Shown here piece after piece: positions 3,761-38,743 of a stretch of 41,826 nucleotides of DNA (position 1 is its first letter; the number at the start of each line of letters is the position of its first letter). The DNA is from a bacterium (GTDB lineage: Bacteria; Cyanobacteriota; Vampirovibrionia; Gastranaerophilales; Gastranaerophilaceae), in NCBI GenBank assembly GCA_017536545.1, contig JAFXHF010000022.1, positions 1-41,826 on the forward strand, written 5' to 3'. Under the pieces are notes generated by a model. That model was given only the letters and a program-made list of their open reading frames with translations, searched no databases and was not told the origin of the DNA. Both the position numbers and the translations under genes were made by a program.

Positions 3761-3788
3761 TAAAGTTTGAACCTTAAAATGCCGTAAT
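3761..3788 (+). promoter_or_regulatory. Sigma-28 (FliA/SigD)-like promoter
   Basis: TAAAGTTT (3761-3768), a 12-bp spacer and GCCGTAAT (3781-3788) match the flagellar sigma-28 consensus TAAAGTTT-N11-GCCGATAA: the -35 is exact and GCCG is exact, with a spacer one base longer. The predicted start of transcription is near 3795, giving a leader of about 40 nt. Confidence 0.6.
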
Positions 3789-3834
3789 ACTACATGAAAG
3801 GCACTAAAAGTTACGAAATTAAGAAAGGAAAGCA

Positions 3835-5613
3835 ATGGGATTAGCAGCATCACAAGCTAGATTATTAACCATAACAGCCCGCAAAGCTGACTGCGAATTC
3901 TTGTCGATGAATTTATCGCATCAAAAGCTTGCTCTTTCTCGTAGCATGGAAAGAGTGTCTAGCGAGTACCAAGATTCTTTAAACAAAACTAAACTTGTTT
4001 ATGATTATTATGGTGCTGGTGATAGCGATATGGCTTTAACTTATGGACTATTAATGAGCCCATCTGTTTACAACGATTATTATCCGAAATTAGTTTCAGA
4101 TAGCAAAAATAGAATTGTACTAAACTCTGCATATGCTCAAGCAGCAAGAGCCGCTGGCATTCCTGCAGAAGGTTTGTTAGGTACACCATCATCAGATGTA
4201 CGTAACAAGTTCGTTGAATCATTGGCTAATTATGGAATTATTACACCTACTCAAGCAGTATCAATTCAAGGTGTTCCATATAATAACGCACTTGGTCTTG
4301 GTAATGGTGTTTCAGCATCTACAAGTTTGACTGAAATTACTTATGATGAATTACTTGAGATGATAGAAGCTCAAGGCGTTGATTCAGAAACTTATGGAAT
4401 AAAATTCGGTGGCAACTGGCCAAATCACGGTGGAACTTTATACTTAACAAAAGAAGAAGGTGCCACATACGATAAAAAGGACGATGGCGGAAATGTAACA
4501 ATCAGTGAATTGTTAAATAAAAACAAAGACATTACTTTGAGTTTATACTCTCAAAAAGGTGAACAATTACCTATCACTGGTGCTGAATTATTACAAAACA
4601 TTGTTGGTGGTGATAGCTACGGTCCAGGTCTTCTAGACTGGATGTTAGATCAATTTGCAAACGTTTTAGGTGGTACTGCAGCAAGCGAAACAGCACTACA
4701 ATATGCATATAATTCAGTTTATGACTTAATTTACCCATCAGAAGCTGTAGATAAAACTTGGGACGATTTTTATAAAAATCACGGTAATACATTATTAAAA
4801 GACAGAGAAAGAAAAGATAGAGCAAATGACACAGACCATGATGATGATGGTAAGGCATTTAAAACAGCTCTTGATGAACTAGCAGTACAAGTTTACTACA
4901 AAGAAGATCAAAGAGATTATTATGATGATATTAACAAAAACTCTAAAAATTATATTGGTTTCACATACACTTGGAACAAAGAAAGATCTGACTGGAACAT
5001 CTTCCACCAAGATAGAAAAGATAGATCTCAAATCCAAATCAATATAAGTAACGTTGCACAAGCCTTCTTGACTTCATATGTTCAATATATGGAAGGTCTT
5101 GGTGACTCTAAATTAGGCTGGCAAAAAGGTAATATTAGTGATAGTACACTTTACGACCCAGAACACAGTGACTTTATGTTCACTATTGTATCAGATACAG
5201 AAGTTGATATGGGAGATTCTCATCTATATGCAAACTTCTACGATACATTATTCAACCAAATCTGTGTAAACGGTTGGACAGAAAATGCTCAAATCGATGA
5301 TCAAGAATACATGTCAGAAATGTTAAAATCTGGTATGGTATTTATATCATCAATGAGTGAAGATGGATACTACTATCAAGGAAACTACACAACAGACAGA
5401 AATATCCTTGAAGTAGCTGATGAAGAAGCAATTGCAAAAGCTGAAGCAAAATACAACACTGAAAAAGCTAAAATTGAAAATAAAGAACAAACTATTGACT
5501 TAAAAATGAAAAACTTAGATACAGAGATATCATCACTCACAACCGAATACGATACGACAAAGAGTATAATATCGAAAGCTATCGAAAAAGGATTTAAGCG
5601 ATATGAAGCATAA
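3835..5613 (+). CDS. Large protein with helical ends, unknown function; possible flagellar-type exported/axial protein
   Basis: The 592-aa protein is acidic and polar and has no Sec signal. It begins MGLAASQARLLTITARK, an amphipathic helical start, and its last 65 residues are a Glu/Lys-rich heptad-like coil ending in a basic, aromatic tail (GFKRYEA). Helical segments at both ends around a large central domain recall flagellar axial and hook-associated proteins, and the gene has a sigma-28-like promoter. The central part is rich in Tyr, Asp and Asn and contains a DxDxDG calcium-loop-like motif near residue 333. GAAAGGAAAG precedes the ATG at 3835. It is a single-gene unit with its own terminator. 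The function is inferred from architecture and promoter only; I recognise no named family. Confidence 0.85.
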   Translation: MGLAASQARLLTITARKADCEFLSMNLSHQKLALSRSMERVSSEYQDSLNKTKLVYDYYGAGDSDMALTYGLLMSPSVYNDYYPKLVSDSKNRIVLNSAYAQAARAAGIPAEGLLGTPSSDVRNKFVESLANYGIITPTQAVSIQGVPYNNALGLGNGVSASTSLTEITYDELLEMIEAQGVDSETYGIKFGGNWPNHGGTLYLTKEEGATYDKKDDGGNVTISELLNKNKDITLSLYSQKGEQLPITGAELLQNIVGGDSYGPGLLDWMLDQFANVLGGTAASETALQYAYNSVYDLIYPSEAVDKTWDDFYKNHGNTLLKDRERKDRANDTDHDDDGKAFKTALDELAVQVYYKEDQRDYYDDINKNSKNYIGFTYTWNKERSDWNIFHQDRKDRSQIQINISNVAQAFLTSYVQYMEGLGDSKLGWQKGNISDSTLYDPEHSDFMFTIVSDTEVDMGDSHLYANFYDTLFNQICVNGWTENAQIDDQEYMSEMLKSGMVFISSMSEDGYYYQGNYTTDRNILEVADEEAIAKAEAKYNTEKAKIENKEQTIDLKMKNLDTEISSLTTEYDTTKSIISKAIEKGFKRYEA

Positions 5614-5642
5614 AAAAAGACCACACAATGTGGTCTTTTTTA
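5612..5642 (+). terminator. Intrinsic terminator of the 592-aa gene
   Basis: AAAAAAGACCACA pairs with TGTGGTCTTTTTT around a 3-nt loop directly after the stop codon. The A/T-flanked stem can work in both directions and may also serve the convergent methyltransferase gene. Confidence 0.88.
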
Positions 5643-22240: not shown

Positions 22241-23329
22241 GCCCTGAACTACTTTTACAACATCATTTGGACAAGGAAAATCCATACAGATATTTCTATT
22301 TTTACGTCTTGGACATTTTCTTCTAAAACAAGGCTGACAACCTAAGCCTTCACCACCTACTGCGATGTACTTTTTCTTATCGCCATATGGTGCTAAAAGA
22401 CCTTTAGGCGTACAAGTGAAAATTGTTACAACAGCAGGATTTCCTGATGCCCAAGCAAGATGAGCACTTCCACTATCAGGAGCCAAAACTACTCTTGCCC
22501 TTGAAAACACTTCAACCAAATCCATTAAATCTGTTTTCCCAGCAAGACTAATATGTTTTCCATTTCTAATATAATCAATTAATTCCTTATCATTAGGACC
22601 ACCTGTAAAGACAATATTGTAATCATCTTCAATTTCATTTACAACATTACGCCAATAATCTTTATTCCAATGTTTAGCAACCCAAGTTGTTGCAGGTGCA
22701 ATAACTGCAAGAGGTTTTGACTTATCAACATCTGCTAATAAATTATCGATTTTTTTCACAACCATTTCACTACGAGGAGGAAGTGAAACTTTGACATCTT
22801 TCGGGAAACAATCCAAATGTGTTGCATATTTTAAGTAATTTAAAACTATTGGATTTTCTTTATCAAAGATTTTTTCAATCCATTCATTGCCCCCTAATAT
22901 TGAACCTTCACGAGCATCTTTTGCCACAATTCTGCGTTTTGCACCACAAAATAATGTCCAAACCATACTCTTTAAAATCATTTGAGAATCAATTGCGATA
23001 TCAAATTTTTCATCACGGAGCTGTTTTATTAAAGCAAAATATTCTTTGAAATTTTCTAATTTTAATCCTCTTTTTCGCCATTTTTGGACAGGAGCTAAAA
23101 TAACCTTATCAACGCAAGGATTACCTTCAACTACTTGAATTCCACGTTCAGATACAAGCCAAGTAACCTCATACCCTGCATCTTTTAATGCATTTGCTAA
23201 TGGAATATTAAAAACCACATCACCTAAGGATGATAATTTTATAAGTAAAACTTTTTTCTTTTCTGTATTTTCTTCATTCTGAACATTTTCAACTGATTCA
23301 GAAATTTCTACTTTTTCCATTTCTTCCAT
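22226..23329 (-). CDS. Glycosyltransferase family 9 (LPS heptosyltransferase-like)
   Basis: Enzymes of this family add heptose to the lipopolysaccharide core at the cytoplasmic face of the inner membrane. The 367-aa protein has an acidic N-terminal extension (residues 1-27), then the GT9 start VLLIKLSSLGDVVFNIP, a second Rossmann half with APATTWVAKHWN, FTGGPNDKELI, and the sugar-nucleotide-binding VLAPDSGSAHLAWASG. A C-terminal Cys cluster (CQPCFRRKCPRRKNR, then C..CP) is typical of this family. The ATG at 23327-23329 follows GGGAGC. Its presence argues for an outer membrane with LPS. The acceptor position is not determinable. Confidence 0.92.
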   Translation of the reverse strand: MEEMEKVEISESVENVQNEENTEKKKVLLIKLSSLGDVVFNIPLANALKDAGYEVTWLVSERGIQVVEGNPCVDKVILAPVQKWRKRGLKLENFKEYFALIKQLRDEKFDIAIDSQMILKSMVWTLFCGAKRRIVAKDAREGSILGGNEWIEKIFDKENPIVLNYLKYATHLDCFPKDVKVSLPPRSEMVVKKIDNLLADVDKSKPLAVIAPATTWVAKHWNKDYWRNVVNEIEDDYNIVFTGGPNDKELIDYIRNGKHISLAGKTDLMDLVEVFSRARVVLAPDSGSAHLAWASGNPAVVTIFTCTPKGLLAPYGDKKKYIAVGGEGLGCQPCFRRKCPRRKNRNICMDFPCPNDVVKVVQGLKLL

Positions 23330-23405
23330 AAAATAGCTCCCGTATCTGACATTTGTAATCAATTATACGTCAATCTAATACGAGAGTCTATATTGTAATA
23401 ATTTA

Positions 23406-25586
23406 TTATGCAGCTTCTTTTTTAGGAAGATTTGGCAACAAGTTTAGTGGAGGTAATCCATGAGTTTTATAAACCTCAGGTTGAGTTTTTAAATTTCCAC
23501 CAGAATGCCTAATTCCATTTAATCTTTCCATTTCAGCAGTCATAACACTCAACTGCTCAGCCAAGGCTGTATCATTAGGATTATTTAGAACTTGAGTATA
23601 CAAGTCATAATATTGTTTACCTACTCTATTGTATTCTAACAAGAAATCTAATCTATCAATTCTTGATGCGATTTCAGCTTGTTTTTCAGCAGTTAATGTT
23701 GTATCTTGTAACATTGCCTGTAATTTTGCTTTTTCAAATTGTGCAGCAGTATTTCTTGCTAATAATTCTTCATATGAGAATTGATATTGATTAAACTCAG
23801 CCTCTGTTGGTCCAAAAATTTTAAGCCCACCAGTTCTAGCATTACCTTCAACAGTTGAAATACGACCAACTAAAGATTCAACAGCTTGTTGATGTTGCTC
23901 TGGTGTCAATTGTATTGGATTTACACCATCGATTTTTGTATTAGAAAATACTTTAAATCTAACTTCATGAGATTTTGTGTATTTTAGTAATGTTTCTAGA
24001 GCTTGAGCTTCTGAACCGCCATTTTCAGCCACAAATTCAGGATTATTTCTAATCATTTCTTTTAACCTTGTAACAACTGATTGCAACTGTTGTTTTGCCG
24101 TAACACTAGAAGGGTTTATAGTACTACTTTCATTTGCAATTATTGCATTAAGAATATCATCAGATTGGTACAACAAGTCATCTGCAAATTGAGCATATTC
24201 TGCTCTCATTTTTGGTGACATTTTTGGTGCAGGCATCATTTCTGGTCCTACAAAAGAGCCCCCGACTAAGATTTCTTCAGCCTCACCATGTTTGATTCTA
24301 TTCATCAATTCTTGCTTAATAATCTGTGCAGCTTCTTCTTTTGTCAAAGAGTTTCTTAAAATTGCCATTTTAGCATGAAGAGATTCATGAACTGCCGTAC
24401 TCATTGATGAGAATCTACCTTCTCTCCAACCACCCGTATTAAAGGTGATTTGATGAGTTCCGTGATTGTATGAACCACCTGCAGTTGGTGATTGTTTATT
24501 AAGTAATGATCTTAATAAATGTTCGTCATTTGCAAATTTTTGGGTATCATCTGCTTGAGATAAAACAGATTTAATTCTAGCAATAATTTCTTCATGTGTC
24601 ATTTCTGATAATTTTTCACCAGCTTGAAAGAATTTCTTATTATAAGTTCCTTTTTGATAACCAGTTGAATAATTTGCATAATATAATTTTTCGTCAATTG
24701 CATTAGAAATAATAGCATTAGCATCATCAATAGCTTGGTATTTCAATTCATCTTGAATAACAATTTTTGGACGAGCTTCTTTTGGAATACCCATTTCATC
24801 AAACGCTTGATTAATAATTTCTGTTACCTCACGTTCCACATCTTTTGTTGACATATTTGCACGACGCTGAGCTTCTGCCGTTTGGTCAAATGGTTTTGGT
24901 TTTGCTGGAGGCACAAGTTTCTTAAATTGAGCCGCAATATTTGATGGTTTAAATCCAGCAATTAAAGCTGAACGACCTTCTGCTGTCGTAATTATTGACA
25001 AGTTTTCTTTTAACGCTGAAAGCATTGAGCCATTTTGAACGTGTTGAGAAATTGCAACTTTTTCAGCCTTAGTAAGCATTCTACCTAATTGATTTGCTTG
25101 CTTAACTTCTGCCGCAACCTTAGCTGATGATTTTAAACCCGCAGCGGTCAAAATTGTACCAATTGTACCTGTACCAATTTTTTCAAAAGATTTTTCTGCT
25201 ACATCATATTCCCCTTTTCGGTAATTTTTAACAGCATCATATGTACCTTTTCCAACTTCAAATAAACTCAATGCACCAAAACCAACTGTTAAAATTGGAG
25301 TTAATGCTGGAATTGCAAAACAAGCTAAACCAGTCGCAGCTAGTGCTCCAATTGCAATCAATGGATGATCAATAATGGCTTTAATTGGACTAATTAAACC
25401 TTTACCAAAATTTCTTAATGCTTCTTTGCCAGTAAACCTACCGTCATTTGAAGCGTCAATTTTATCTTCTTTTTTATCTTCAAATAAAGGTTTTGTTGTT
25501 TCTTTGGCTTTAAAATTAACATTATTCGTTTTGCCGTAATTTACGTACGGGTTGGTGTTAACACCATTAATTGATCCTATTGGCAT
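23406..25586 (-). CDS. Large protein with glycine-rich membrane segment and HEXXH zinc-protease-like motif, unknown function
   Basis: The 726-aa protein has an Asn/Tyr-rich N-terminus (NPYVNYGK, NNVNFKAKE), a hydrophobic Ala/Gly-rich stretch that could form one or two membrane spans (about residues 70-110), a long mostly helical middle and a coiled C-terminus. At residues 400-404 it has HESLH inside STAVHESLHAKMA, a fit to the HEXXH zincin consensus with flanking hydrophobic helix residues, so it may be a metallopeptidase. A third zinc ligand is not obvious. It lacks a Sec signal. AAAGGA precedes the ATG. Its promoter resembles those of the 127- and 170-aa genes. No family is recognised. Confidence 0.82.
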   Translation of the reverse strand: MPIGSINGVNTNPYVNYGKTNNVNFKAKETTKPLFEDKKEDKIDASNDGRFTGKEALRNFGKGLISPIKAIIDHPLIAIGALAATGLACFAIPALTPILTVGFGALSLFEVGKGTYDAVKNYRKGEYDVAEKSFEKIGTGTIGTILTAAGLKSSAKVAAEVKQANQLGRMLTKAEKVAISQHVQNGSMLSALKENLSIITTAEGRSALIAGFKPSNIAAQFKKLVPPAKPKPFDQTAEAQRRANMSTKDVEREVTEIINQAFDEMGIPKEARPKIVIQDELKYQAIDDANAIISNAIDEKLYYANYSTGYQKGTYNKKFFQAGEKLSEMTHEEIIARIKSVLSQADDTQKFANDEHLLRSLLNKQSPTAGGSYNHGTHQITFNTGGWREGRFSSMSTAVHESLHAKMAILRNSLTKEEAAQIIKQELMNRIKHGEAEEILVGGSFVGPEMMPAPKMSPKMRAEYAQFADDLLYQSDDILNAIIANESSTINPSSVTAKQQLQSVVTRLKEMIRNNPEFVAENGGSEAQALETLLKYTKSHEVRFKVFSNTKIDGVNPIQLTPEQHQQAVESLVGRISTVEGNARTGGLKIFGPTEAEFNQYQFSYEELLARNTAAQFEKAKLQAMLQDTTLTAEKQAEIASRIDRLDFLLEYNRVGKQYYDLYTQVLNNPNDTALAEQLSVMTAEMERLNGIRHSGGNLKTQPEVYKTHGLPPLNLLPNLPKKEAA

Positions 25587-38272: not shown

Positions 38273-38683
38273 TTATGCAAATAATTCTGCGAATGGGCCG
38301 TTAGGGTCTTGGATATGAGCAGCAACAGCACCATCCTCTGCTAATCTTAAACCTGGTTCTACCACTGTTTTAACGCCGTTAGCAACACTTGCAACTTGAG
38401 CTGCTGTAACTTTGTAGTTATAACCCAAGCTTGCTAAAATAGCGTTTGTTTGATCAGCTAAATCTTTGTCTGCAGCAGTAAATTTGCCTAATTGAACGCC
38501 ATATAAATTTTGTGCGTTTCTTGTTAAAAGATCTGTTTCATTTTCTAAACCTTTAAATTGGTTAGCACTTACTGCTTCTTGTTTTGTTTCTTCTGCCTTC
38601 TTTACTTCTTCCTTTGATACACCGGCAGCAATACCTAAGTTATAATTATTATAACCTTTGAATTTGTTAAACTCGATTGCCAT
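38273..38683 (-). CDS. Small soluble protein with sigma-28-like promoter, unknown function
   Basis: The 136-aa protein starts MAIEFNKFKGYNNYNLG and has no Sec signal or membrane span. Its middle is Lys/Glu-rich (EEVKKAEETKQEA), followed by a helical Ala-rich domain (LADQTNAILASLGYNYKVTAAQVASVANGVK) that I give here only in part as LADQTNAILASLG and TAAQVASVANGVK. AAGGAG (minus strand) precedes the ATG. It is a single-gene unit with a near-perfect sigma-28 promoter and its own terminator, which suggests a role tied to flagella, motility or a type III-like export. It is next to another small protein gene with a related control region. No family is recognised. Confidence 0.82.
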   Translation of the reverse strand: MAIEFNKFKGYNNYNLGIAAGVSKEEVKKAEETKQEAVSANQFKGLENETDLLTRNAQNLYGVQLGKFTAADKDLADQTNAILASLGYNYKVTAAQVASVANGVKTVVEPGLRLAEDGAVAAHIQDPNGPFAELFA

Positions 38684-38716: not shown

Positions 38717-38743
38717 TTATCGGCATGTTTTTAATTATCTTTA
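38717..38743 (-). promoter_or_regulatory. Sigma-28 (FliA/SigD) consensus promoter
   Basis: On the minus strand TAAA (38740-38743), exactly 15 bp and GCCGATAA (38717-38724), the complete FliA consensus core. The predicted start of transcription is near 38710, leaving a leader of about 28 nt with AAGGAG. Confidence 0.75.

Follow-up and report, generated by a model that had tools for sequence, protein, structure and literature searches.

The gene for a 592-amino-acid (592-aa) protein of a Gastranaerophilaceae bacterium, a gut relative of the cyanobacteria, is preceded by what is, judged from its sequence, a sigma-28 (FliA) promoter, and the protein belongs to a family that tracks a type III exporter, not the flagellum. 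The stretch that was analysed, called the window below, comprises positions 1 to 41,826 of contig JAFXHF010000022.1 in GenBank assembly GCA_017536545.1. The family members are likely to be axial-like proteins, expressed under sigma-28 control, that serve as substrates of a divergent type III exporter derived from the flagellum; we infer both their export and their assembly. The 592-aa protein itself probably has no place in a swimming flagellum.

A sigma-28-type promoter and its probable targets

The promoter, of a kind that usually serves late flagellar genes, has the form TAAAGTTT-N12-GCCGTAAT and lies 74 bp ahead of the ATG (Table 1). A sequence-only reading of the window had reported an exact extended -35 element followed 12 bp later by a -10 element, and had called the promoter sigma-28-like. 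The sequence is just as it said, and the assignment has been corroborated by the conservation of the site in relatives and by a FliA gene in the genome. The pattern TAAAGTTTN{11,13}GCCGTAAT has just two copies in the 1.9-Mb genome, the other of which precedes the gene for a 695-aa paralogue. A looser pattern, TAAAGWWW-N11-13-GCCGWWWW, finds 19 genomic sites compared with none for the reversed control, and 18 of the 19 fall outside open reading frames of at least 100 aa. Such a box lies 64-75 bp ahead of the ATG in all but one of the nine family genes of this genome.

Relatives were scanned using one genome per species, with 452 relatives found and 79 loci kept; the organisms, where the records name them, are mostly Gastranaerophilales or Melainabacteria. 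None of the 82 distinct upstream regions from other genomes departs from the nine-letter core (TAAAG plus GCCG) by more than one mismatch, and 48 of them match it exactly. The spacer is 12 in 72 of these regions and 11 in 10, and the box is 59-101 bp from the ATG in 79. Dinucleotide shuffles come within one mismatch in 18 of 410 cases and reproduce the exact core in 0 of 410. The site is judged not to be a chance occurrence because there are 19 genomic sites against 0 in reverse, eight of them ahead of family members, and because the box recurs in 82 of 82 regions from relatives.

Base counts across the relatives give TAAAGTTT and GCCGTAAT or GCCGATAA as the common forms, which are close to the enterobacterial FliA consensus. 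The sequence features that define a sigma-28 promoter, a -35 like TAAAGTTT, a -10 like GCCGATAA and a spacer of about 11, are all found, with a spacer of 12 here and of 11-12 in relatives. A FliA/WhiG-type sigma factor is encoded elsewhere in the genome (C14:104627-105289; TIGR02479, 237.9 bits, cut-off 189.6), and of the 146 family-level relatives 140 have a FliA above the NCBIfam cut-off. The neighbourhood of fliA holds no recognisable FlgM. The 592-aa gene is presumably transcribed by FliA, and a terminator-like hairpin right after the stop codon makes it look like a single transcription unit.

Sigma-28-like boxes also precede genes for an HD-domain protein and for several unnamed proteins lacking a signal peptide (L049, L041, L042, L045, L047, L048 and window 38273-38683). 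These other signal-less proteins are candidates for further export substrates.

A family with conserved helical ends

The 592-aa protein is one of at least nine paralogues in the source genome, something that could not have been known to a reader of the window. A genome search places other members on contigs C18, C5, C1, C14, C3, C27 and C11. The N-terminal stretch of about 50 residues is conserved (MGxAASQARxLxxTAR...E), as is a C-terminal coiled coil of about 60 residues. The region between them varies in both length and sequence, so that whole proteins range from 347 to 716 aa within one genome. A model of the N-terminus matches all 146 family-level Gastranaerophilales genomes, with 1-23 copies in each. 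A PHROGs search returned one weak match of unknown function.

Helical segments at both ends and the absence of a Sec signal had been proposed from the sequence, and both have held up. Helices are predicted with good confidence at residues 2-49 and 530-591 (53 sequences, pLDDT 84, pTM 0.52), and a hydropathy check finds no Sec-like hydrophobic N-terminus in the 592-aa protein. Foldseek returned no significant match for this model. Its matches span both ends, and the terminal helices therefore appear to pair. In the model of a short, 347-aa paralogue (pLDDT 87) the same two helices enclose a middle rich in strands, and the model alignment contains no flagellar sequences. When the short model was compared with the whole PDB using Foldseek, the best nine entries were flagellar filament, cap or junction proteins, with weak E-values (best 2.8e-3). 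A second look using VIA-align placed flagellar axial proteins (flagellin, FliD, FlgL, FlgG and FlgE) in all of rows 1-26, at Z 9.0-6.5, with the first unrelated chain at rank 27; the match to 8sug_A has Z 8.6 over 109 residues at 1.7 A. The idea that the end helices pair as in axial proteins is favoured by the short paralogue, whose model lies nearest to these proteins, but not by the 592-aa model, which matches generic coiled-coil hairpins (MukB and others) equally well, these ranking with flagellar cap and junction proteins.

A glycosidase fusion protein suggested by one alignment row has been ruled out. The row comes from L098:1900-3879, a public record labelled Ruminococcaceae in which a family gene continues into a GC-rich gene for an alpha-galactosidase; this contig is an assembly chimera and there is therefore no fusion protein. 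The chimeric row is one of the 53 sequences behind the 592-aa model. Elsewhere, a sigma-28 box lies ahead of genes for 90-aa and 110-aa proteins (L038:1501-2270, G000:C3 about 22783-23552). The helical 110-aa protein shows weak similarity to the C-terminal end of the family and could represent a needle-like member of minimal size, but it was not accepted as one because the match is weak (13 bits with the A2 model). Two short family genes on separate contigs (L021:4668 and L022:336) have near-identical coding starts and promoters, which suggests a recent duplication or a split assembly.

Table 1. Features of the window, with positions counted from its first nucleotide
Feature	Position	Strand	Basis or remark
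-35 element TAAAGTTT of sigma-28-type promoter	3761..3768	+	sequence, genome pattern counts, relatives' upstream regions
-10 element GCCGTAAT	3781..3788	+	spacer of 12 bases, 3769-3780
Likely ribosome-binding site AAAGGAAAG	3824..3832	+	read from sequence
592-aa gene P0001, MGxAASQAR family, proposed axial-like export substrate	3835..5613	+	
Codes conserved N-terminal helix (residues 2-49), likely export/assembly segment	3838..3981	+	
Codes conserved C-terminal helix (residues 530-591)	5422..5607	+	
Terminator-like hairpin AAAAAAGACCACA-CAAT-GTGGTCTTTTTT	5613..5642	+	read from sequence
136-aa protein without signal peptide, downstream of the 38717..38743 promoter; candidate member of same regulon	38273..38683	-	
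Second sigma-28-like promoter of the window, TAAAGATA-N11-GCCGATAA	38717..38743	-	

A divergent exporter and its distribution

The source genome encodes a full-length FHIPEP protein (FlhA) in an operon with FliE, FliF, a FliG-like protein recognised only by a weak MgtE_N match, and FliH. It also has a FliM/N-FliO-FliP-FliQ-FliR operon and rod genes for FlgB, FlgC and two FlgF/G-like proteins. A Flg_bb_rod search of this genome gives just weak FlgB- and FlgC-like matches, adjoined by the two FlgF/G-like genes, and no hook-type match. The FlhA is divergent, with a score of 691 bits for the FlhA model (cut-off 772) and of 581.5 bits for the SctV model (cut-off 692.25), and its nearest solved structures are flagellar FlhA. 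No FlhA of the canonical class was found in the source genome, which has the divergent protein and a C-terminal-only copy. With the divergent class alone, a complete flagellum is unlikely.

The C-terminal-only copy is a 491-aa protein in which the cytoplasmic part of FlhA stands behind a coiled coil (L027:8788-10263, G000:C7). A second FHIPEP match is present in most relatives, and a separate soluble FlhA-like docking protein may therefore be general in the clade. On the same locus, a 226-aa protein (L027:14618-15298) looks like the N-terminal portion of the FliG-like protein (334 aa) that the flhA operon encodes (L026:5210-6214).

FHIPEP proteins of the 146 relatives fall into two classes separated by a gap, with 57 genomes at 847 bits or more and the rest at about 736 bits or less. 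Flg_bb_rod matches are few and weak in most genomes lacking the high class, and usually number 5-10 with a strong best match where it is present. The family is kept in all 89 genomes without canonical FlhA. All but one of these 89 have a FHIPEP gene, mostly as a full-length open frame, and several flagellate genomes have both classes. At the level of the class, 211 of 289 genomes have the family and all 211 also have FHIPEP; of the remaining genomes 24 have FHIPEP but no family member and 54 lack both, so that the family never occurs without FHIPEP, although these counts were made within one clade and are confounded by descent. In other words, the family tracks the exporter and not the flagellum. 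The sequence-only reading had named as evidence against an axial-like protein a confident structure unrelated to axial proteins together with presence in genomes that lack flagella and any type III-like export; no genome with the family but without a FHIPEP export gene was found. The flagellar placement itself has fared less well. A part in a swimming flagellum is improbable for a protein whose genome lacks both canonical FlhA and a hook-type match, and whose family is present in every one of the 89 genomes without canonical FlhA.

Gene order also links the family to the exporter. The 592-aa orthologue is head-to-head with fliM-fliO-fliP-fliQ-x-fliR in seven other genomes, across a gap of about 200 bp with a sigma-28-like box in between, and in an eighth genome fliE is 3.6 kb away. 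A FliI/YscN-family ATPase gene begins 115 bp downstream of a family gene at L126 and lies 2.1 kb upstream of a member at L115. These ATPases score 539.6 and 550.8 bits against the SctN model (cut-off 604.75). Between fliQ and fliR, seven relatives encode a small secreted-looking protein with a weak match to T2SS-T3SS_pil_N, the secretin N-domain (L080:707-1099, L095:693-1061, L110:691-1077 and the same position in four other loci). It is not found between fliQ and fliR in the source genome.

How might such a system work? The 592-aa gene would be a late gene transcribed by FliA, and its product one of roughly nine axial-like paralogues. These would be exported independently of Sec by a divergent flagellar-type type III apparatus composed of FliE-FliF-FliG-like-FliH-FlhA, FliM/N-O-P-Q-R and a rod of FlgB, FlgC and two FlgF/G-like proteins, which these mostly non-flagellate gut bacteria would have retained. 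The helices at the two ends would pair in the manner of flagellin-type subunits, and the middle domain, which is specific to each paralogue, would face outward. With this arrangement, the proteins would most likely form a short surface appendage by docking on the rod or polymerising from it, or would be released. Perhaps non-flagellate gut Gastranaerophilales build a new rod-based surface appendage, that is, a flagellum-derived secretion organelle with no hook or motility whose sigma-28-controlled subunits have flagellin-like ends and interchangeable outer domains. This idea must be considered tentative and rather doubtful.

Alternative readings and known systems

Several observations do not fit easily with axial-like substrates of a divergent exporter. 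No usable relative of the family was found among Pfam, NCBIfam and PDB sequences, and HHalign comparison of both termini with those of the rod and hook proteins FlgB, FlgC, FlgE, FlgF and FlgG from the same clade gave nothing. The family is therefore axial-like in architecture and not assignable to any axial family. This divides the earlier proposal of an axial-like protein: the sigma-28 promoter, FliA, the end helices and the fold of the short paralogue support it, but sequence homology to axial families does not. The weak E-values of the short paralogue, the coiled-coil hairpins matched by the 592-aa model, the 24 genomes having FHIPEP without the family and the shared descent behind the counts weigh the same way. 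Neither FlhB, in the stretches of the source genome examined, nor FliI, which was seen in two other genomes, was located in the source genome. No evident flagellin lies behind any of the 19 sigma-28-like sites, flagellin not having been searched for directly. Finally, one of the nine family genes, that of a 351-aa protein (C3:20812, L020:2813-3868), is the sole exception in having no sigma-28 box. It is about 11 kb from flhA and may encode an early, structural member.

What if the exported proteins do not assemble at all? They could be soluble effectors or adhesins that merely use the exporter, like the sigma-28-dependent flagellum-secreted proteins of Campylobacter. Their very different middle domains, their high and varying copy number and the unrelated signal-less proteins among the other sigma-28 targets are all consistent with this. 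However, a secretion signal alone would need only an N-terminus, whereas both termini are strongly conserved and helical, and the fold of the short paralogue resembles that of polymerising subunits. Soluble effectors or adhesins are therefore an unlikely explanation, though one to be taken seriously.

It is considerably less likely that the family comprises accessory axial or filament proteins of an ordinary flagellum, with decaying copies in non-flagellate genomes. The promoter, the axial-like fold and the flagellar-type export genes would suit such proteins, and earlier papers took partial gene sets as flagellar loss (PMC3787301, PMC4040986). However, decay is difficult to reconcile with intact promoters, with retention of the family in 89/89 genomes without canonical FlhA and of FHIPEP in 88/89, mostly as full-length frames, or with the flagellate genomes that have both FlhA classes. 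It is very improbable indeed that these are cytoplasmic coiled-coil proteins that just share a sigma-28 promoter with unrelated genes. That the box also precedes the HD-domain protein gene is compatible with a cytoplasmic role. Arguing against it are the position of the family next to fliM-O-P-Q-R and fliI in other genomes, its strict co-occurrence with FHIPEP and the flagellin-like fold of the short paralogue.

Axial-like substrates of a divergent exporter would share with FliC, FlgL, FlgK, FlgE, FlgG and FliD a late sigma-28-type promoter, an apparent lack of a Sec signal, a variable middle and many paralogues. Helical termini are conserved at both ends and may pair here too, and axial proteins are the nearest solved folds for the short paralogue. 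However, the family has no detectable sequence homology to axial proteins, matches none of their families and occurs in species without canonical FlhA or hook-type matches. Like injectisomes, the system has a core of the FlhA/SctV, FliPQR/SctRST and FliI/SctN type without a swimming filament. Unlike them, it retains flagellar rod proteins, and its FlhA scores higher as a flagellar FlhA than as an SctV (691 vs 581 bits, both under curated cut-offs). Neither the FlhA homologue here nor the ATPases of the relatives score above the cut-offs for an injectisome SctV/SctN-type core.

Some of the non-flagellar proteins that leave through a flagellar apparatus, such as the Fed proteins, are under sigma-28 control. 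Secretion of non-flagellar proteins through the flagellar apparatus in Campylobacter (PMC5223770, PMC2764114) is the closest functional parallel. However, a working flagellum accompanies secretion there, whereas most species here have the exporter by itself, and the family has axial-like termini at both ends. Partial flagellar gene sets have been described in Melainabacteria, with MEL.A1 lacking the filament, cap, junction and L/P rings, and were taken as gene loss (PMC3787301, PMC4040986). In the literature searched, no paper was found that interprets them as an exporter with cargo of its own. These are the same organisms and the same kind of gene set, but what is seen here is a divergent system that has been conserved, complete with a regulon and a cargo family of its own. 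This suggests that flagellar genes hitherto taken for leftovers make up a functioning export machine that has a dedicated cargo. If so, the exporter would be conserved together with its own sigma factor, a class of promoters of its own and as many as 23 genes for surface proteins in a genome, and common but little-studied gut bacteria would present or secrete many proteins by an undescribed route. Such an exporter would also be an intermediate of some use in working out how flagella and type III secretion systems interconvert.
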